Positions 18,157 to 58,819 of a stretch of DNA of 64,000 nucleotides are shown in pieces (the stretch's first letter is position 1; each line of letters opens with the position of its first letter). Under the pieces are notes generated by a model. That model had not been told where the DNA came from. It made no database searches and worked only from the letters and a program-made list of their open reading frames with translations. The stretch comes from Balamuthia mandrillaris (lineage: Eukaryota > Discosea > Longamoebia > Balamuthiidae), in assembly GCA_031835245.1 (NCBI GenBank), contig JAVKOQ010000004.1:496001-560000 (forward strand), in the 5' to 3' direction. A program made the translations under genes and the position numbers.

Positions 18157-19669
18157 TGAGGTGATACCCTTTTCTTGAAAAAATTTTTGAGTGTTTTAAT
18201 TAATTAAAATTTGAAATGAATGTTTCCCTAAATTTAATGGGAGACATTCATTTTATTTTATCTTTAATTCGTTTGTAATTGTAATAATAAATATAATTTG
18301 CAATTGCTTTGTGAAATTGTTTAAAAGTTAAAAATTCTTTTTCGCGACCATAAAAACATTCTCTTTTTAATGTTCCAAAAAACGACTCAATAATGCTATT
18401 ATCTAAACAATTTCCTTTTCGAGACATGGACTGAGTTATTCCTTTTTGTTTTAATTTTTCTGAAAATTGTCTATGTTGATACTGCCAACCTTGATCACTG
18501 TGAAAAATTAAACCTTCAAGATTTTTGTGTTTGAAAAAAGCTCTTTGAAGCATTTTTCTAATTTGCTGGTTATTAGCGCTTGTAGACAAATCTCAAGCAA
18601 TAACTTCGCCATTAAACATATCTAAAATTGGCGATAAATATGCTTTCCAAATGGTGCGCTAAATTCAGTTACATCTGTAGTTCATTTTTGATTTGGTTGA
18701 GTAGCAGCAAAATTTCTATTTAAAATATTGTCTGCAATTTTGCCAACTGTTCCTTTGTAAGATTTGTATTTTCTTCTAGAACAAATTGCTTTGAGATTGA
18801 ATTTTTTCATTAATCTGCGAACTTTTTTAAATCCAATTTTATAGTCTCTATTATTAAGTTCAGCTTTGATTCTTCTTTTTCCATATCTTGCTTTATTTTC
18901 TTCAAAAATAAGCTTCATTTGGCTTATAATTTCTTCATTTTTCTTGTCAAAATCTTCTTTTTTGAGTTCATAATAAAAAGTAGATATAGGAATAGAAAAC
19001 TCTTTTAATACTTGAGTTAATCGAAGGTTTTTATCAGCTTTTACTCTATTATAAATTTTTTTTATTTTTTCTTGCCTTGGTTGATTTGAGTCAAAGATCT
19101 CTACCAAGGCTTTTCACTTTTTTAGTACTTCATTTTCTTTTTTTAAAAGTTTAATTTCTTCTCTAAGAAGTTTGAGTTCTTCATATACAGATGTTGAAGA
19201 ATTTGATTGATCTTTACTATCGGAATTTTTTGATACTTTTGTAGGTTTATTATTATTATAATCTTAGATTTCATTATTGGTCTTCCTTTGTTTAATTCTA
19301 AACCACTAATTCCCGATTCTAAATATTTTTTCGCTCAAAAAGATATTTGACTTGGATTAAGATTATTTTCAAGTGAAATTTTAACAATTGGTTCACCAGC
19401 TAAAAATCTTTTAACTATGTTTAATCTTTGATCTATAGTTCACTTTTTATTTCGTGGTTTTTTCTTAAGACCTTCAACTCCTAATTTGTCATAAATTTTT
19501 TCTCAAAAATTTACTTGATTTAAAAAATTTTTTGACTTGTATTAGCAAAATCAGGCTTTTTAATTTCAATTCCTTTTTTGTATTTTTTTACACATTCTAA
19601 TTTAAATTCTAATGAATATTTCATAAAAAATCCCCTTTTCTATTTTTCTAGGAAAAGGGGATCTGCTCA
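18157..19669 (-). mobile_element. IS3-family element, copy 2 (1513 bp), IS1221-like
   Basis: In plus coordinates the element runs from TGAGGTGATACCC to GGGGATCTGCTCA, giving imperfect 18-bp inverted ends. TTT flanks both sides (18154-18156 and 19670-19672), consistent with a 3-bp target duplication. It is inserted in a terminator loop. Its length equals the 1513 bp I recall for IS1221. Its transposase is broken. Confidence 0.92.
18200..19624 (-). pseudogene. Broken IS3-family transposase, copy 2
   Basis: The gene starts at 19624 but shifts frame early: an A6 run (near 19531-19536) replaces A7 of copy 3 and leads to a stop. A 2-base change near 19255 disturbs the linker. In the orfB part, GGAAAGC replaces GGAAAAGC near 18651. 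The N-terminal half of orfB (from 19107) and the DDE C-terminal part (to 18200) remain open separately. The A6G heptamer at the A/B junction is kept. It is probably inactive, unless some shifts are sequence errors. Confidence 0.85.
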
Positions 19670-19697: not shown

Positions 19698-20906
19698 CTA
19701 TTTTTCTTGAATAGGATGTAATCCAACTAGATCTGCTTTTTCAATAAATGTAATTGAAGCTCCACCACCAGTTGAGATGTGGCTGAAGTTATCTTGTAAA
19801 TTATTTGCTTCAACAGCAGCTACTGAATCTCCACCACCTATAACTGTGTATGCGTTTTCTAATTTACTAATTTCTTTTGCTACTGCTTCTGTTCCTCATT
19901 TAAAATTACTAAATTCTGCAACTCCTAGTGTTCCATTTCATAAAACAGTGTGAGCACCTTTTAACTCATTTCTAAATAATCTAAGAGTTCAAGGTCCAAT
20001 ATCTAATCCTTCAGCATCTTTTAAAATTTGTAATGGAAATCTTGTGTTATATAGTCTTTGTGTATCTTTAAATTCGTATGCCATCGCATTATCAATTGGT
20101 AAAATAATTTTATCTCAGTATTTTTCTAGCAATTCATTAGCTAATTCGATTTTATCATCTTCAACAATTGAAATTCCAATTTCAAATCCTAATGCTTTTT
20201 TAAAAGTATATGACATACCACCTGCTATTAAGACTTTATCTGCTTTTTCTAATAATGAAGAAATTATTCCAATTTTATCTGAAATTTTTGCTCCACCAAC
20301 AATAGCGACAAAAGGTCTTTTTGGATTATCAATTAATTTGGTTAATGCTTTTAGTTCATTTTCTACTAAATAACCAATAGCAGATTCTTGAATGTGTTGT
20401 GCTATTCCTACATTTGAAGCGTGTTCTCTATGTAATGTTCCAAAGGCATCGTTAATAAATACATCACCTAAAGAAGCTCAGTATTTTCCAAGTTCTGGAT
20501 CATTTTTAGATTCTGCTTTATTATTTAAATCTTCAAATCTTGTGTTTTCTACTAATAGAACTTCTCCAGCTTGTAGACTTTCAACTGCTTGTTCTAGTTC
20601 TTCGCCTCTAGTAACAGGAACAAAAATTATTTCTTGACCTAATTCATTTGCTAATTCTTCAGCAACAATTCTTAAAGATTTTTTTGTTAAATCCTTTTCA
20701 GATTTTACTCTTCCAAGGTGTGAAAATAAAATAGTTTTTCCACCTTCTTCAATTATTTTTCTAATAGTAGGTAATGTAGATTTAATCCTTTTAGTTGAAG
20801 TAATTTGACCATTTTGTATAGGAACATTGTAGTCAACACGCACTAAAACTTTTTTATCTTTTAAATCTAAGTCATCAATACTTTTTTTGTTTAAAAAACT
20901 TTGCAT
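19698..20906 (-). CDS. pgk: Phosphoglycerate kinase
   Basis: 402 residues, normal length. It makes ATP from 1,3-bisphosphoglycerate in glycolysis, the main energy source of fermentative mycoplasmas. Visible motifs are the N-terminal [10 protein letters not shown] signature, the substrate-binding SHLGR block, FINDAFG, KISDKIG and the C-terminal GGGDSVAA and STGGGA(S) nucleotide loops. Several Trp are TGA. The start at 20906 has CTCC-complement GGAG upstream. Its terminator was split by IS copy 2. Confidence 0.96.
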
Positions 20907-21138: not shown

Positions 21139-21168
21139 TTATTTAGTTTTAAACAAACAGGAGAACAC

Positions 21169-23364
21169 ATGATATTAAAATTTTATTGTACTATTATCTG
21201 TGCTAAAGAAACCTCACAAAGCAGTGAACCTAAGTGTACCTATAGATTAAGGTACGCAAAAAAAGTTCACGGTATTTATGATAATTTTCATGATATTGTA
21301 GTTGCTATTAACTCGTTAAATGCTCCAGCAAGGTTATGGGTTAGAGAGGATAATAACTTTAGAAGAGTTCTTAGATTCCCATTAAATGTAAATAAACTAA
21401 CTACTGAACAAAGATTAGAGTTTTACAATGATGTTTTTTCTGATAGGAAGGAATTATCAAACTCTGTAGAATTAGCTGAAGAACAATTTCAAGAATTAGC
21501 TGAAAAAAACAAAGAAAGAACTTTAGAGCTAGCTAAAATTGATTCTTTAGAAAAAATTCAAGAACTACAAGAAGATACAGAATCAATTATTTCCACTACA
21601 GAAGAAGAACCACAAGAAGAACATGATCAAGAATGTGAAATTTGTAGATTAGCTTCATCAAAACCAGTTGAAGCAACATTAGAAGGGGAAGTTGTTGAAG
21701 AGCAAACTGTATCGGAAGAACCAGTCGTATTAAAAGAAGAAACTGTTGAAAAAATAGTAAGCAACAAAGAATGTTTAAGCTGCAAACTACTTGATGAAGA
21801 AGTTATTAGTACTGATGTGTGCCAAGGTTGTGCTAATAGCAAAAATGTATGTGATCTATGCGAGAGTTGTAATGGCCAATGCAATGAACAACAAATTTAT
21901 GTTAAAGAACCTGTTCAAGAAGAATTATTTGAAGAACAAGCAACTTTTGAGCAACCAATAGAGCTAACAGATTTAGAAGATGACCATTTTGAAACAGTTC
22001 ATTTAGAAGAAGAAGTTTGTTTAGCATGTCAACACGTTGCAACTTGTGATATTTGTAAAAATCTAGAACACAGTGAAATTCTTTACAGACTCAAAAATGG
22101 ACAAGTTGTTAATTTATTAGAAACCGAATTAGAAACCGAAGAACTTCATTATGCAGATTCACCAGTTCAAGAAGGAAAAGAACCTTGTGGATGTTCATTA
22201 AAAGAAACTGAAGAAAGCTGTGATTGTGAAGCTTGCAAATGTCAAGAATGTGAAGAAAACTGTAGTTGTTCAGAGTTAACTTGTGGATGCCAAGAAGCAA
22301 CCTGTAGTTGTGCCCAAGAGCATTGCGGATGTCAAGAAGAGTCTTGTGCATGTCCTAATACAACTTGTGCTTGTACTGAAGAACACTGTGAATGCACTGA
22401 ATCAACTTGTGGTTGTGAAAACGAACCTTGTGAATGTGAAGAAGAAGCTTGTGATTGTTCAGAAGAACACTGTGAATGTGTTGACGAAACCCAAGCGTGT
22501 TTAGATTGCAATACACAAGCTGACACAAAAGTTTGTGGATGTACACAAGAACAACATCCAACTTGTGAAGAATGCAAGGAATGTGATGAATGCAAACAAT
22601 GTAAAGCTTGTTTAGTACAAACTCAAGAATGTGAAGAATGCAAAATACCAACAGTACACGATGATGAAGAAATTCACTGTGAACTTTGTGAATTAGAAAA
22701 TACAGAAGTTGAAGGCTTAGAACCAAGATTATTTGAAGACTTTGAAAACGAACAAGTTGAATACATTGAAATTCAACACATAGAAGATCAAGCATACAAT
22801 TCATGATGTCATGATGAATGATGTAGAGAAATTGTTGAAAAAGCACAAGAGCCAGAACACACATTAAGTTGCGATTGTGATTTTGATTACAGTACAAATC
22901 CACTTGTTGAAGAAGTACACTCAGTTCAAGAACTAGAAGAACAAGAAGATTTACATGTTCACAAATTAGTAGAAAATGAAGGACAAGCAGAAGTTTCTAT
23001 TGAAACTGAAACACCAGATAGAGTTCCATTTACTTCAGTAACTTATCCTGTGGGTGGACATTTAGATCATTCTAAACTACAAGAAGGTGGATGCCCAACT
23101 TGTGGATTTGGAAACTTATTCTCAGTATCTAATGAACAGCTAGCAGCTGAAGTTCAAAGAAGAAATTTACCAATGGTTCTTGATCCTGAAGCAGCTCAAT
23201 CATATTCAAGTTTTGTTGTTTCAAAAGTGGATTCTGAACAAGAATACAAAGTTAGTTGATGAACAAACAAAAACTTAATTCTATGATTCTTAGTATGATT
23301 CTTACTAGCAGCAGTGGGGGTTATACTAGTTCTAGTATTTGTATTTTATGCTCGTAGTAACTAA
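21169..23364 (+). CDS. Cysteine-rich acidic tail-anchored protein with CxC heptad repeats
   Basis: 731 residues; about 66 are Cys (9%), far above any neighbour. Order: a small basic domain (about 1-90) with three Cys; a Glu-rich region with scattered C-x2-C pairs (about 150-320); eleven perfect tandem heptads C-x-C-x4 (residues 365-441, 22 Cys); a run of C-x2-C pairs (about 444-500); more acidic sequence; a CPTCG pair; and one strongly hydrophobic segment near the end (about 703-727) followed by a short basic tail. No signal peptide is seen, so the bulk is probably cytoplasmic, held by a C-terminal anchor. GAGAA-type ribosome site before the ATG. Metal (Zn, Cu) or redox binding is inferred from Cys spacing only. 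I do not recognise the family. Confidence 0.85.
22261..22491 (+). repeat. Eleven 21-bp coding repeats (C-x-C-x4)
   Basis: Eleven consecutive 7-codon units each start TGY NNN TGY, from CSCSELT to CECVDET, without a gap. The third to seventh codons vary, so the cysteine spacing is kept while the DNA has diverged, which suggests selection on the protein pattern. Confidence 0.9.
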
Positions 23365-23393: not shown

Positions 23394-23424
23394 AAAAGAT
23401 ACTTTTATCAAGTATCTTTTTTGT
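23394..23424 (+). terminator. Terminator after the cysteine-rich gene
   Basis: An 11-bp perfect stem (AAAAGATACTT 23394-23404, AAGTATCTTTT 23410-23420) with loop TTATC is followed by more T. About 240 bases then follow with no gene before the cyclase. Confidence 0.85.
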
Positions 23425-23660: not shown

Positions 23661-24254
23661 ATGTCACAAAATTACGAAATTGCTATTTTAACATTGCTTA
23701 TCATCTTTTTTTTGTTGTTTGTTGCAAAACAACTTTTTTTTCTTGTTAAAAAACTTCCATCGAAGAGCACAAAATTTGCTGAGCTTTCAAGCTCTACACA
23801 AAAACGTTTAGTACACGAAATTACAACAGCTGTTAAATATTTATCAACCACAAACACAGGAGCTATTATTACTATTGAAAATAAAGTAGCAATTGATAAT
23901 CTTCGAACTGATGGAATTAAAATAGATGCAAATATTTCTTCTTCGCTTATTCTTGCCATTTTCAACAAACAATCTCCACTTCACGATGGTGCAATTGTGA
24001 TAAGAGATAATAAAATAATTTATGCTTCAACGTTTTTTAAACTTACACAAAAATCTGTGCTAAGTAAATATGGTTCCAGGCATAGAGCTGCTTTGGGAAT
24101 CTCTGAACAATCTGATTCAACAACAATTATTGTTTCAGAAGAAAGAGGAGAAATTGGGATAAGTCAAAAAGGAAAAATTGAACCAGTATCTTTTGAAAAT
24201 TTTTCTCGTAAATTAGAGGCTATCCTTAAAAATCACAATATTGTAAATATTTAA
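23661..24254 (+). CDS. cdaM: Diadenylate cyclase (c-di-AMP synthase)
   Basis: 197 residues. The start at 23661 is preferred over a TTG 42 bases upstream because AAAAAAAGG precedes it and the hydrophobic helix follows directly. One N-terminal membrane segment (about residues 8-28) anchors a DAC domain with the catalytic blocks LHDGAIVI (DGA) and RHRAALGIS (RHR). It makes c-di-AMP from ATP; in related bacteria this nucleotide controls potassium and osmotic balance. A single membrane helix is the CdaM type known from mycoplasmas, against three in CdaA. mgtE follows 16 bases later. Confidence 0.92.
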   Translation: MSQNYEIAILTLLIIFFLLFVAKQLFFLVKKLPSKSTKFAELSSSTQKRLVHEITTAVKYLSTTNTGAIITIENKVAIDNLRTDGIKIDANISSSLILAIFNKQSPLHDGAIVIRDNKIIYASTFFKLTQKSVLSKYGSRHRAALGISEQSDSTTIIVSEERGEIGISQKGKIEPVSFENFSRKLEAILKNHNIVNI

Positions 24255-24270: not shown

Positions 24271-25749
24271 ATGACACTTTTAGAACTAATTCGTAAAAAA
24301 GACTTAAATGGAGTTAGACAATATTCAAATCAAGTCACTGCTGCTCAATTAGCTGAAGAAGTTTCGCATTTTTCTTTATATGAAAGATCAATGTTTTTTA
24401 GAATGCTTACAACTGAAACAGCTGCTGAGGTTTTTTCTTATTTTGCTTCAGATATTCAAGAAGAACTAATTGCAGGTCTTCCTGATGAACAAATGAATGC
24501 ATTACTTGAAGAACTTTACACAGATGAAATTGCTGATTTAATTGAAGAAGTTCCAGATAATGTTGCTAATAAAATTTTAAAAAATATTGATAAAAACACT
24601 CGTAATATTGTTAACTTACTTTTAAAATACACTGATGAACAAATTGGTTCAATTATGTCTGTTGACATTGTTTATTTAGATGAGAATCTTTCTTCAAAAC
24701 AAGCACTAGATAAAATTAGAACCTATAAAGATGAAGCTGAATTAGTGCATTATTACTATGTAGTTAATCATCAAAAACACATTATTGGTGCTATTACTTT
24801 AGAAGATATTGTTTTTTCTGATCAAAATGAATTAGTTAAAGATATTTGTTTTGCAACCCCGATAGTAAAAACAACTGATTTAAAAGAAAAAGTAGCTCAT
24901 TATTTTGCTGAAAATGATTTTTCAGTTCTTCCTGTAGTTAATTCCAAAGAAAGATTAGTAGGAATGATTACAGCTGATGATATTATTGATATTGTTCAAG
25001 AAGAAGCAACAGAAGATATGTATAAATTAGCTGGTATTTCTTCAAAAAAAATTGATGATTCTTATATTAAAACAACAGTGTTGCAAATAGTAAAATCAAG
25101 AATTTTTTGACTTATTATTTTAATGCTAGGCTCTACTCTTTCTCAAGTAATAATTCAAATGTTTACTGATTCCATTGCACAAAATCAACGTTTAAAAGTT
25201 TTGGGTCTTTCAATTTTTATAAGCACTATTGTTTCCATTATTCCAGTTATTTCTGGTGCAGCTGGAAATGCTGGTTCTCAATCTGCAACAACAATTGTTC
25301 GGGCAATTTCTCTAGCAGAAGTTGAACGAAAAAACTTCTTTAAACAAGTATTTTTAAAAGAATTAGCTGTTGGTAGCATTATTGGCACTATTTTGATGGT
25401 AATTAATTTTGTAAGATTATTAATTTATTTTACAATTAGTAAAGATTTATTCAACAATCAACAACCTCATTATGAAATAGTAACTGGTGAGCATACAATA
25501 AATATTCAACATGTGCACAATGGTTTAGCACACAAAGACTACATTTTGATTATTTCAGCAGCTGCTTCTTTTTCTTTGTTTTTAGTTATTATTTTTTCAA
25601 AAATGTTAGGATCTTCAATTCCTTTATTGGCACAAATTCTTAAAAGAGATCCAGCAGTTATGTCAGCTCCAATTTTAGCTACATTAACCGATTCAGTTTC
25701 AACATTTATCTTTTTTGGCATTACCATTTTAGTTTTTGTACTTATTTAA
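24271..25749 (+). CDS. mgtE: Magnesium transporter MgtE
   Basis: 492 residues. Order: MgtE N-terminal helical superfamily domain with an acidic patch (about 1-125), a CBS pair (about 130-250) that senses Mg2+, a connecting helix, and a membrane domain with about five helices. The channel motif GAAGNAGSQSATT is intact. TGA (Trp) at 25108-25110 divides it under the standard code. AAGGAGAAG ribosome site. It closely follows the c-di-AMP cyclase, so both may be expressed together. A terminator follows. Confidence 0.95.
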
Positions 25750-52425: not shown

Positions 52426-53977
52426 TGAGTAGATTCTCTTTTCTTAGAAAAATAGAAAAGGGAATTTTTTATGAAATATTCAATAGAATTTAAATTAGAA
52501 TGTGTAAAAAAATACAAAAAAGGAATTGAAATTAAAAAGCCTGATTTTGCTAATACAAGTCAAAAAAATTTTTTAAATCAAGTATATTTTTGAGAAAAAA
52601 TTTATGACAAATTAAGAGTTGAAAGTCTTAAGAAAAAACCACGAAATAAAAAGTGAACTATATATCAAAGATTAAACATAGTTAAAAGATTTTTAGCTGG
52701 TGAAATAATGATCAAAATTTCACTTGAAAATAATCTTAATCCAAGTCAAATATCTTTTTGAGCGAAAAAATATTTAGAATCGGGAATTAGTGGTTTAGAA
52801 TTAAACAAAGGAAGACCAATAATGAAATCTAAAATTCTTAATGATAAACTTTCAAAAGTTTCAAAAAATTTAAATAGTAAAGATCAATCAAATTCTTCAT
52901 TATCTGTATATGAAGAACTCAAACTTCTTAAAAAAGAACTCAAACACTTTAAAAAAAGAGAAAAAAACTTTGAAAAAGAAATTAAACTTTTAAAAAAGGA
53001 AAATGAAGTTCTAAAAAAGTGAAAAGCCTTGGTAGAGATCTTTGACTCAAATCAACCAAGGCAAGAAAAAATAAAAAAAATTTATAATAGAGTAAAAGCT
53101 GATAAAAATCTTCGATTAACTCAAGTATTAAAAGAGTTTTCTATTCCTATATCTACTTTTTATTATGAATTCAAAAAAGAAGATTTTGACAAGAAAAATG
53201 AAGAAATTATAAGTCAAATGAAGCTTATTTTTGAAGAAAATAAAGCAAGATATGGAAAAAGAAGAATAAAAGCTGAACTTAATAATAGAGACTATAAAAT
53301 TGGATTTAAAAAAGTTCGCAGATTAATGAAAAAATTCAATCTCAAAGCAATTTGTTCTAGAAGAAAATACAAATCTTACAAAGGAACAGTTGGCAAAATT
53401 GCAGACAATATTTTAAATAGAAATTTTGTTGCTACTCAACCAAATCAAAAATGAACTACAGATGTAACTGAATTTAGCGGACCATTTGGAAAAGCATATT
53501 TATCGCCAATTTTAGATATGTTTAATGGCGAAGTTATTGCTTGAGATTTGTCTACAAGCGCTAACCAGCAAATTAGAAAAATGCTTCAAAGAGCTTTTTT
53601 CAAACACAAAAATCTTGAAGGTTTAATTTTTCACAGTGATCAAGGTTGACAATATCAACATAAACAATTTTCAGAAAAATTAAAACAAAAAGGAATAACT
53701 CAGTCCATGTCTCGAAAAGGAAATTGTTTAGATAATAGCGTTATTGAATCATTTTTTGGGACATTAAAAAGAGAATGTTTTTATGGTCGCGAAAAAGAAT
53801 TTTTAACTTTTAAACAATTTCACAAAGCAATTGCAAATTATATTTATTATTACAATTACAAACGAATTAAAGATAAAATAAAATGAATGTCTCCCATTAA
53901 ATTTAGGGAAACATTCATTTCAAATTATAATTAATTAAAACACTCAAAAATTTTTTCAAGAAAAGGGTATCACCTCG
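52426..53977 (+). mobile_element. IS3-family element, copy 3 (1552 bp), potentially active
   Basis: The left end is TGAGTAGATTCTC at 52426; the right end GGGTATCACCTCG at 53977, where the final A of the other copies is G. The inner linker is longest here. Flanks AAA and AAT do not form a target duplication. Its transposase frame is open throughout. It lies directly upstream of the S10 operon promoter. Confidence 0.9.
52471..53934 (+). CDS. IS3-family (IS150-like) transposase, continuous A+B frame
   Basis: 487 residues when TGA is read as Trp at six or more sites. N-terminal HTH domain (orfA part) with KKWTIYQRLNIVKRFLAG and NPSQISFWAKKY; a Lys/Glu-rich coiled linker; the A/B junction VLKKWKALVEIF; then the orfB part with HTH-21 (YGKRRIKAELNNRDYKIGFKK) and the rve/DDE core: KWTTDVTEF (D), IFHSDQGWQY (D), and DNSVIESFFGTLKREC (E). 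The A6G heptamer (53013-53019), normally a -1 shift site, lies at the junction, but here the two parts are in the same frame. One codon (an Asn in ANNQQ) is missing relative to copies 1 and 2. Confidence 0.92.
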
Positions 53978-54513: not shown

Positions 54514-55209
54514 ATGAAAGGTATTTTAGGTAAAAAAGTGGGAATGACACAACTATTTACAGAAGAAGGAATTAGCATTCCAGTTACTGTTGTAGAAGTT
54601 CAACCTAACGTAGTTACAAATGTTTTAACTAAAGACAAAAACGGTTATGAAGCTATTCAATTAGCAGCATTTGACAAGAAAAAAAGCAGATTTACAAAAC
54701 CAGAATTAGGACATTTTAAAAAAGCTGATACTGAACCAAAACGTTTCGTTAAAGAGTTTAGAAATATGCAAGCTGAATTAGGACAAAAAGTAGATTTATC
54801 TATATTTGAAGAAGGTGAATTTGTTGATGTAGTTGGAACGTCAAAAGGTAAAGGATTTGCCGGAACTATTAAAAGATATAACCAACACATAGGTCCAAAA
54901 TCTCATGGTGGAGGTGGAGGTTCTAAACCTATTCGTCAAACAGGATCAATTGGTGATATTTCAGGAAACAAAGTAGTTAAAGGTATGACAATGCCAGGTC
55001 ATTTAGGACATGAAAGAACTACAGTACAAAATCTAGAAATTATTAAAATTGATTTAACAAATAACATTTTAGTTATTAAAGGATCTGTTCCAGGACCTAA
55101 AAAATCATTTTTAGTTATTAAAGAATCAGTTAAACAAGCTCCTAAAAAAGCAGCAGAAGTTTTAGTTGATTATTCACAAACACAATCAGAGGAGGCAACT
55201 AATGAATAA
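54514..55209 (+). CDS. rplC: 50S ribosomal protein L3
   Basis: 231 residues. [15 protein letters not shown] at the start; [16 protein letters not shown] and the glycine-rich [11 protein letters not shown] block (Gln methylated in some species) are visible. C-terminal extension of about 20 acidic residues beyond the usual end. Its last codons contain the GAGGAGG ribosome site of rplD (55189-55195), so the two overlap. Confidence 0.96.
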
Positions 55210-56089
55210 AAAAGAAAACACAACTCAAACAAGTAATGCCCCTAAAAAAGAAGTTATTAAACCAAGATCTTCAACAACTCACGCACATGTACACAAACAT
55301 ACACATACTCATGTACATACTAAAAAAGTTGAAAAACAACCTGAAGTTCAACAAGTAAAAACACCTGAAAAAGCAACAACTCAAGCAAAAGTAGTTACAA
55401 AAGCAGCTCCAAAACCTGCAACAAAACCTACAGCTTCTGCAAAAACAGGCGAGAAAAAAGTTGAAATCAAGCAAACTAAAAACGTAGCAAAAGTAAATAT
55501 TACAAATAAAGTTTCTTTACCAAATGAATTATTTGGAAAAACTGAAATTCACTCACAAGCTATTTTTGACACTATATTATATGAAAGAGGATCACGCAGA
55601 AATCCAACTCATAAAGTAAAATCAAGAGCAGAAGTTAGTGGAACAGGTAAAAAACCTTGAAAACAAAAAGGTACAGGTAAAGCAAGAGCTGGCTCTCTAC
55701 GTTCACCAATTTTTGTAGGTGGTGGTCGTGCATTTGGGCCTACAAATAATAAAAATTACAAAATTAAATTAAACAAAAAAGTTCGCAAATTAGCTTTTGC
55801 CTCAGCTTTAAGTCAACTTGCTCAAAATAATCAAGTACTAGTTTCTGATTTTGCACAAAAAGAAATTTCAACTAAGACACTAGTTAAAAAATTAGCTTCT
55901 GAAAAATTAAATGAATTAAAAAATGTGTTAATTATTTCATCATCTTCAGAACTTTTCTTATCAGCTCGTAATTTACAAAATGTTAAAGTTACAAAATGAA
56001 GTTCAATTTTAGTAGAAGATTTAGTAAAAGCAGATGTGTTCATTATTTCAGAATCAGATATTAAAAACCTAGAAGGAAGATTTAAATAA
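55202..56089 (+). CDS. rplD: 50S ribosomal protein L4 with histidine-rich N-terminal extension
   Basis: 295 residues against about 205 normally. The start at 55202 is chosen for the GAGGAGG site 7 bases upstream; it overlaps rplC. The extra N-terminus (about 100 residues) is Lys/Thr/Ala-rich and contains seven His alternating with other residues (27, 29, 31, 33, 35, 37, 39). The L4 core follows: [36 protein letters not shown] (with Trp by TGA) and GGGRAFGP. L4 binds 23S rRNA and, in E. coli, also the S10 leader. Metal binding by the extension is only inferred. Confidence 0.95.
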
Positions 56090-57431: not shown

Positions 57432-57706
57432 TGGCACGTTCATTGAAAAAAGGTCCATTTGCAGATGAGCATTTACTTAAAAAAGTAGAGGCGATGAATG
57501 AACAAAAAAACAAAAAACCAATTAAAACTTGATCAAGAAGATCTACAATATTTCCTGAATTTGTTGGACTCACATTTTTAGTTCATAATGGAAAAATCTT
57601 CAATGAAGTTTATGTAACTGATGATATGGTTGGACACAAATTAGGTGAATTTTCTCCTACAAGAACATATACAGGACATGGACAAGACAAAGGGAAGAAA
57701 AAATAG
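57431..57706 (+). CDS. rpsS: 30S ribosomal protein S19
   Basis: 91 residues. [37 protein letters not shown] and [16 protein letters not shown] are diagnostic. The Trp is TGA. Starts on the last base of the rplB stop codon. Confidence 0.97.
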
Positions 57707-57719
57707 GTAGGCATTAGTT

Positions 57720-58085
57720 ATGGAAAATAAATCACAACAAGCAAGAGCTAGTGTAAAAATGCAACGTATTTCAGCTCAAAAAGCTCGTTTAGTTGCACGT
57801 TTAATTAAAAAACAACCAACTACAAATGCATTAGCTATTTTACAAAATACAAATAAAAAAGCTTCATATTTCTTCATAAAACTATTAAACTCAGCTGTAG
57901 CAAATGCTGTTAATAACCATGGATTAAACGGTGATAGTTTAGTAGTTAAAGATGTAATTGTAAATGAAGGTCCAACACTTAAAAGATTTCAACCAAGAGC
58001 AAAAGGTGTTGCATATCGTATTTTAAAAAGAACTTCTCATTTAGCTGTAGTAGTTGAAGAAGTAAGTTTATTAGGAGATAAATAA
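57720..58085 (+). CDS. rplV: 50S ribosomal protein L22
   Basis: 121 residues. [41 protein letters not shown] and [24 protein letters not shown] are the L22 signature; the last part is the loop lining the exit tunnel. GGTAGG ribosome site. Confidence 0.96.
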
Positions 58086-58087
58086 TT

Positions 58088-58819
58088 ATGGGACAAAAGG
58101 TTAATCCAAATGGATTTAGATACGGAGTTACTAAAGAACATAATGCAATTTGATATGCTGATAAAAAAGACTTTGCTCCAAATCTTTTAGAAGATGTTAA
58201 AATTCATCGTTTTTTTGAAAAAATAACAAGAGAATATTTAATTGGTAATACAAAAATTCGTCGTGATCAAGATAACAAAGTAACAGTTGTAGTTTACACT
58301 GCAAAATTAGGTACTTTTCTAGGACAATCAGGAAGTAATCTTAAAAAAATAATTGAAGATGTTAAAAAATACGTTAAAAATAAAAAACTTGTTTTAAACA
58401 TAGATGCAGTAGAAATTGAAAAACCAGATTTAGATGCAAAATTATTAGCTGAATCAATTGCAATTAAATTAGAAAACCGTGGATCATACCGTATGGCACA
58501 AAAATTTGCAATTCGTTTAGCACAAAAAGCCGGAGCTAAAGGTATTAAAACTAAAGTTAGTGGTCGTTTAAATGGTGTTGATATGGCTAGATCAGAAGGA
58601 TATTCTGAAGGTGAAATGAAATTACACACACTTAGACAAGATGTTAGTTATGCAACAGCAACAGCAAGAACAACTTATGGAGCACTTGGAGTTAAAGTTT
58701 GAGTTTCATTAGGCGAAGTATTTGCAAAGCAAAATCAAGCATATAATGAAGAAGAACCAACACACAAAAAAGGTCCAAAAAGAGCAGCAAGAGTTAAAAA
58801 AGAAAGTACAAAGGAATAA
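58088..58819 (+). CDS. rpsC: 30S ribosomal protein S3
   Basis: 243 residues. Start [16 protein letters not shown] domain with [18 protein letters not shown] (GxxG at GQSG); [15 protein letters not shown] and GVKVWVSLGEVF. Three TGA Trp codons. C-terminal basic tail. Starts 2 bases after rplV. Confidence 0.96.

Follow-up and report, generated by a model that had tools for sequence, protein, structure and literature searches.

Why does a mycoplasma whose proteins are poor in cysteine carry a gene for a single protein with dozens of these residues? The locus lies in a stretch of 64,000 nucleotides (here called the window), positions 496001 to 560000 of contig C3 (569,775 bases) in assembly G000, which comprises 64.8 Mb in 775 contigs. 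In a protein search the nearest named cluster for the product of the gene, here called gene X, was that of Mesomycoplasma hyorhinis (93% identity), and DNA of M. hyorhinis NCTC10121 covers 82% of gene X at 99.9% identity in a single place. The window is therefore M. hyorhinis DNA within a far larger assembly, presumably a cell-culture contaminant in the genome of another organism. The mycoplasma_FSE frameshift element matches the window at three places (1934-2021, 19049-19135 and 53001-53087), the second and third of which fall inside transposase-like ORFs.

An earlier note on this DNA had described a protein of 731 residues with about 66 cysteines in a lineage poor in cysteine, and took this for a real investment. 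We counted exactly 66 cysteines, 9.0% of all residues. As background we used the longest non-overlapping ORFs of the window of at least 150 aa, gene X excluded (n=46), which contain 62 cysteines in 16,193 aa (0.38%). Gene X alone thus exceeds the other 46 ORFs summed and holds just over half of the total (66/128). The second richest ORF, 57641-58141 on the minus strand (4.8% cysteine), was rejected as an ORF-calling artefact, since it lies antisense to a ribosomal-protein-like ORF at 57720-58085; it was counted among the 46, so the real background is slightly lower than 0.38%. Such a concentration would also be found if the protein were a thiol store or redox buffer in a cell where other protein thiols are scarce, a reading to which we return below.

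Gene X (21169-23364, plus strand) is an ORF under translation table 4 with an ATG start, six TGA codons read as tryptophan, and an AGGAG at 21159-21163. Its product is strongly acidic (165 acidic versus 52 basic residues), and 60 of the 66 cysteines stand in CxC or CxxC spacing. The first ~72 residues (21169-21384, plus strand) form an N-terminal domain delimited by the alignments A7 and A8, with a predicted beta-beta-alpha-beta-beta fold in a low-confidence AlphaFold2 model (mean pLDDT 60); the AlphaFold2 models were poor in general, with mean pLDDT values of 41 and 60. In the middle, pattern counts and alignment A3 revealed one half module, CLACQHVATCDIC, at residues 284-296 (22018-22056, plus strand), which is followed by eleven exact CxCx4 heptads at residues 365-441 (22261-22491, plus strand), as stated in the earlier note. 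Hydropathy exceeded 1.6 only at residues 700-731 (23266-23361, plus strand) and reached at most 0.84 elsewhere, so that by this crude test there is no N-terminal signal segment. A single hydrophobic segment at the extreme C-terminus, as already noticed, makes this a tail-anchored protein by hydropathy, with the N-terminus probably in the cytosol. Profile scans of the window protein against Pfam and NCBIfam returned no family at E values up to 1, in line with the view that it belongs to no known one; a clear match to a metallothionein-like or cytoskeletal family was likewise not found.

The neighbours of gene X are the divergent pgk (19698-20906, minus strand) and, downstream, cdaA, encoding a diadenylate cyclase (23661-24254, plus strand), and the magnesium transporter gene mgtE (24271-25749, plus strand), the latter two identified from the annotation of the corresponding NCTC10121 locus, L003. 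Between gene X and cdaA lies a hairpin of low GC content with a T run behind it (23394-23420, plus strand; -9.2 kcal/mol, z -4.23 against 200 shuffles), which is a likely terminator. A consensus terminator scan that is stricter on G-C pairs found none.

The heptad block contains 22 cysteines in 77 residues, at positions 1 and 3 of all 11 units. The mean pairwise nucleotide identity between units is 0.61, and amino acid identity is 1.00 at the two cysteine positions and 0.07-0.40 at the other five. The claim that the heptad DNA has diverged while the cysteine spacing is kept is therefore right for the copy in the window. The register of all 22 cysteines is not chance, and the array likely arose by internal duplication. 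Heptad number, which had been raised as a feature to compare across strains, does vary: strain BTS7 (787 aa) has one extra heptad, one heptad cysteine changed to tyrosine and a poly-Glu expansion. In the orthologue of the sister species, Mycoplasma sp. 1654_15 (621 aa, 39 cysteines), both ends are present and the heptad array is absent, which makes the heptads lineage-specific.

Compared with this orthologue, the dN/dS of gene X was 0.26 overall, 0.10 for residues 1-100, 0.12 for residues 495-575, 0.23 for the anchor and 0.35 for the cysteine region (67 aligned codons). The low values at both ends point to purifying selection between the species. Moreover, the window protein keeps 35 of the 39 cysteines of 1654_15, versus 69% identity over all aligned positions. 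Within the species, only 17 changes separate the window from BTS7 (13 of them non-synonymous, 4 synonymous; dN/dS 0.78), which gives no evidence of constraint on gene X at this level; the cysteine region shows five non-synonymous changes and no synonymous one. These latter changes, the lost heptad cysteine, the poly-Glu expansion and the sister species without an array are what near-neutral repeat slippage would leave behind if the function of the gene resided in its two ends. We nevertheless regard this as improbable, because neutral drift would hit the cysteines too, whereas these are kept in 11 of 11 units and the other five positions have diverged.

Is this protein peculiar to M. hyorhinis? 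With a first profile, built from three sequences, relatives came to light in 15 of the family's 135 genomes, and a ten-row profile again gave 15 of 135. The order pgk (divergent), X, cdaA, mgtE was present at all 15 loci (14 fetched loci and that of BTS7), likewise in the window. Together these genes define a family, the X family, whose members combine an N-terminal domain of ~72 residues with a cysteine-rich middle and a C-terminal anchor and are encoded next to pgk, cdaA-mgtE or both; gene X of the window belongs to it by its orthologous position and by both ends. The 14 intact members of the 15 all have 31-69 cysteines and a C-terminal anchor, although the type of motif changes. The remaining orthologue (genome G007, L030 6689-8750) is frameshifted and split into three ORFs in different frames, which may reflect a sequencing error or decay. 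Named members include those of M. hyopneumoniae (915 aa), M. flocculare (869 aa), M. dispar (965 aa) and M. ovipneumoniae (1003 aa); they are annotated as hypothetical or uncharacterized, except that one source gives the label IMCp domain-containing, which we take to mean alveolin-like. The M. ovipneumoniae-type protein at L033 4817-7834 has V/P/E-rich repeats ahead of its C-terminal part, and these are perhaps the reason for that label.

What differs between lineages is the middle, which consists of arrays of 4-7 zinc-finger-like modules, of CxCxxC motifs, of CxxC pairs or of CxC heptads. The module, C-x2-C-x-H-x3-C-x2-C-x12-C-x2-C, occurs in 4-7 copies spaced ~60-75 residues apart in 11 of the 15 genomes, those of M. 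hyopneumoniae and M. ovipneumoniae among them. There is one module in G006 and one in G007, and no more than a half module is found in M. hyorhinis and 1654_15; the half module of the window, CLACQHVATCDIC, may accordingly be a remnant or a precursor of the modules of the relatives. In an alignment of 16 modules from three genomes (two G019 copies are identical, and a single one was used), C1, C4, H6, C10, C13, E22, A23, C26 and C29 were invariant, and the resulting C6H1 pattern resembles a set of zinc ligands. A search of the order (320 genomes) detected the module in 14 genomes, in 13 of them at the X locus and in one, G248, as a borderline match (E 5e-4). The Pfam family zf-C3HC4_3 (PF13920) matched four of six orthologues scanned, three of them above the cut-off and all partially, and the best match to a solved structure was the RING of MAT1 (E 0.0037). 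This resemblance is partial and may reflect only the spacing of cysteine and histidine. The modules also bear on the thiol store considered above: the CxC and CxxC pairing and the invariant histidine and cysteines resemble metal ligands, whereas a plain store would need no spacing at all. We therefore consider a mere store or redox buffer very improbable. The interpretation in the earlier note is partly supported; what the sequence of the window alone could not reveal is that the heptads are specific to one lineage and fill a chassis of much wider occurrence, in which relatives carry C6H1 modules.

Five genomes with a close mgtE but no match to the profile (G020, G021, G022, G024 and G055) were examined at the mgtE locus. 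A cysteine-rich anchored protein precedes cdaA-mgtE in G021 (896 aa, 51 cysteines), G022 (542 aa, 21 cysteines) and G024 (506 aa, 20 cysteines); none was found before cdaA-mgtE in G020 and G055 when the locus was read. In G020 and G023 an X protein with 18 cysteines lies beside pgk, with cdaA-mgtE elsewhere in G020, and in G055 a protein with the N-terminal domain is located away from cdaA-mgtE. When diverged members were added, the N-terminal domain profile A7 matched 51 of the 320 genomes of the order, and a broader profile, A8, matched 73 of 320. The loci of the 51 A7 genomes, which all counts of ORF types given here cover, yielded 66 matches in 65 ORFs. Forty-five of these ORFs are anchored, 17 are fused to the ribosomal protein uL4 and three fit neither type (a gene with a frameshift and ORFs of 76 and 375 aa).

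The uL4 fusions occur once per genome in 17 genomes, nine of which have both the anchored and the fused kind. Two fusions were scanned and matched PF00573 (uL4) with E values of 1.5e-60 and 1.5e-58. The domain forms an N-terminal extension of uL4, for example at L095 2672-3643, L103 1924-2922, L101 2550-3497 and L106 8503-9480. The uL4 of M. hyorhinis itself (window 55166-56089) lacks the domain and has a His-rich N-terminal extension instead, which is possibly metal-binding too. At least 10 cysteines are present in 20 of the 65 ORFs, all of them anchored: 19 of X type and one paralogue from another lineage, in G098 (L096 2557-3588; 343 aa, 11 cysteines), whose version of the chassis bears a CxC run of its own. 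A protein of G112 similar to this paralogue (L100 2049-3035) has three cysteines. The protein encoded ahead of cdaA-mgtE in G119-G122 has a single cysteine, and the three of these sequences that were read have a charged, coiled-coil-like middle. Cysteine is thus not the general purpose of the chassis, and the cysteine arrays are one among several fillings of it.

We also compared the domain with the MAG3090 family N-terminal domain (NF045932). Eight N-domain proteins were scanned, and three matched it weakly (E 0.0015-0.022); the best of these scored 19.2 bits, below the curated cut-off of 70 bits. This model matched 0 of 12 A7 members, that of the window included, and none in G001 or G006-G020. 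Twelve loci were found by both the NF045932 model and the A8 profile, weakly by at least one of them. At other loci, 53 of the family's 135 genomes carry the MAG3090-type domain above cut-off. The two domains possibly form one superfamily or are cousin families.

The occurrence of the N-terminal domain on uL4 bears on where the cysteine-rich part lies. Since strains differ in size, the protein could be thought of as a surface antigen, with its cysteine-rich part outside, cross-linked by disulphides and size-variable like other mycoplasma repeat proteins. However, it has no signal segment, its anchor stands at the extreme C-terminus and its N-terminal domain is shared with an intracellular ribosomal protein, which makes an exposed position highly unlikely. 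The uL4 fusions also bear on the constancy of the locus. X precedes cdaA-mgtE at every one of the 15 loci first found and in G021, G022 and G024, as does the protein with the coiled-coil-like middle in G119-G122. The product of gene X may then regulate the neighbouring c-di-AMP synthase CdaA, or MgtE, as a membrane sensor of metal or thiol state; CdaR offers itself for comparison as a CdaA regulator, for which X would stand in. We think this unlikely, given the probable terminator that separates X from cdaA in the window, the X gene of G020, which stays at pgk with cdaA-mgtE elsewhere, the N-domain protein of G055 away from these genes, and the uL4 fusions without cdaA-mgtE context in the stretches read.

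A more serious alternative is that the protein is an adaptor or scaffold. Its N-terminal domain would bind a partner (ribosome, nucleic acid or protein) and the anchor would sit in the membrane, while the metal-bound modules or heptads would be mere structural spacers of which only length and stiffness matter. Few parts of the protein are as constrained as its first 100 residues, the domain is seen with coiled-coil-like, low-cysteine and cysteine-rich middles as well as on uL4, and V/P/E repeats occur in the M. ovipneumoniae-type orthologues, with the IMCp label from one source. A spacer, on the other hand, has no need of 31-69 cysteines, and the cysteines are kept better than the rest of the protein. 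We regard the adaptor, including the idea that spacer length and stiffness are what counts, as possible yet doubtful. A bolder proposal, and an improbable one in our judgement, is that the domain which opens 45 anchored and 17 uL4 ORFs (of 65 in total) is a shared dock linking ribosome and membrane. If it binds itself or a common partner, the tail-anchored members would serve to tether ribosomes, or ribosome assembly, to the membrane. The metal-thiolate middle of Mesomycoplasma would then make the ribosome tether responsive to metal and adjustable in length by in-frame recombination.

How do the arrays grow? In M. hyorhinis NCTC10121, gene X is a single ORF of 7632 bp (L003 6141-13772; NZ_LR214949.1) encoding 2543 aa with 310 cysteines. 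A block of 1368 bp (456 codons), present once in the window (21557-22924, plus strand), occurs there in five tandem in-frame copies without a mismatch. The copies are joined at the 11-bp microhomology TTCAAGAACTA, which marks both ends of the block in the window, with a left copy at 21557-21567 and a right copy at 22925-22935 (both plus strand). The junction sequence was found four times in NCTC10121 and not at all in G000 and G001. The final residues of the anchor are altered in NCTC10121 by a G run that lacks one base there, possibly a sequencing error. The record NZ_LR214949.1 is filed in PLSDB as 'plasmid 3' and is of chromosome size (843,827 bp, 691 features).

The five-fold form is based on one deposited assembly, and block copies may have been collapsed in others, that of the window among them. 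No other multi-copy form was found in protein searches covering ~402-1279 and 1399-4450 aa; the NCTC10121 protein itself was missed as well, so the protein database is no full census of multi-copy forms. In addition, the longest exact repeats within X genes measured 133 bp in G009, 106 bp in G019 and 93 bp in G017, versus 12-13 bp in the pgk and mgtE controls of the window; such long repeats do not occur in all members, as the gene in the window (17 bp) and that of G006 (12 bp) show. The long repeats suggest that unequal recombination also acts in the module arrays of relatives.

To the question of what the cysteines are for, we give roughly even credence to one answer: that the product of gene X is a cytosol-facing, membrane-tethered metal-thiolate array, acting as a buffer or as a metal-stabilised scaffold. 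The C-terminal helix would anchor the protein in the membrane and the ~72-residue domain would dock it to some partner. The acidic and probably largely unfolded middle would face the cytosol and offer closely paired cysteines, presumably in the reduced state, which would bind soft metal ions, most likely Zn2+ and possibly Cu+. The seven invariant ligand-type residues per module of the relatives and the pairing of 60 of the 66 cysteines argue for metal-thiolate sites, and Zn2+ would suit the modules; between buffer and scaffold, sequence comparison allows no firm choice. Selection would chiefly concern how many paired thiols are present close to the membrane, so that the middle could be rebuilt in various styles and enlarged by unequal recombination. 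Among the roles proposed earlier, metal binding thus stands as the most likely, while redox storage and a cross-linked scaffold have become less likely because the segment probably faces the cytosol. Several observations count against a metal-thiolate array: the neighbours cdaA and mgtE hint at c-di-AMP or Mg2+ rather than soft metals, the window protein matched no metallothionein profile in Pfam or NCBIfam at E up to 1, and there are low-cysteine members of the chassis, poor structure models and weak constraint within the species.

No prior description of the X family was found in the literature searched. Thiolate arrays, zinc-finger-like repeats and tail anchors are already known; what is new, as far as we found, is that they replace one another on a single anchored mycoplasma chassis, together with the five-fold in-frame block. 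One anchored chassis, largely at one locus, with at least four cysteine-rich fillings in one bacterial group amounts to a natural experiment, in which it becomes testable whether cells select thiolate capacity over fold. Transposon libraries exist for M. hyorhinis (PMC6642558). As the orthologues are labelled only hypothetical or uncharacterized, apart from the one IMCp label, the analysis gives a conserved protein of unassigned role, present in livestock mycoplasmas and in a cell-culture contaminant, a family and a concrete hypothesis. The fusion of the N-terminal domain to uL4, an unexplained link between a ribosomal and a membrane protein in minimal cells, is the bolder lead.

The modules of the relatives recall RING-type zinc fingers (PF13920; MAT1, RNF4) in their C-x-H-x3-C-x2-C ... 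C-x2-C spacing. A RING finger has eight ligands, C3HC4, in cross-brace order, whereas these modules have seven invariant ligands, C6H1; at best they cover profile positions ~17-47 of 49, leave the first metal pair unmatched and stand 4-7 in tandem. The X proteins are moreover bacterial and anchored, and the window protein itself, with its half module, has no RING match. The gain of thiolate ligands through tandem copies resembles the tandem amplification of CUP1 in yeast, which however involves whole-gene copies, whereas gene X repeats in frame within one reading frame. A metallothionein is small and soluble, has few other domains and binds several metal ions in thiolate clusters. The product of gene X shares the high content of cysteine in CxC and CxxC spacing (22 cysteines in the 77 residues of the heptads) and differs in having 731 aa, a conserved N-terminal domain and a hydrophobic C-terminal anchor. 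A close likeness to the heptad block is found in the long fungal copper metallothioneins, in which, according to PMC4755600, a CxC-rich unit is tandemly amplified to very high cysteine content: CnMT1/2 of Cryptococcus neoformans and TmMT of Tremella mesenterica consist of tandem CXC-X5-CXC-X3-CXC-X2-C units, with 57 cysteines in 257 aa in TmMT. Compared with these proteins, which have neither anchor nor N-terminal domain, bacterial gene X combines CxC-X4 heptads with a tail anchor, an N-terminal domain and long acidic flanks.
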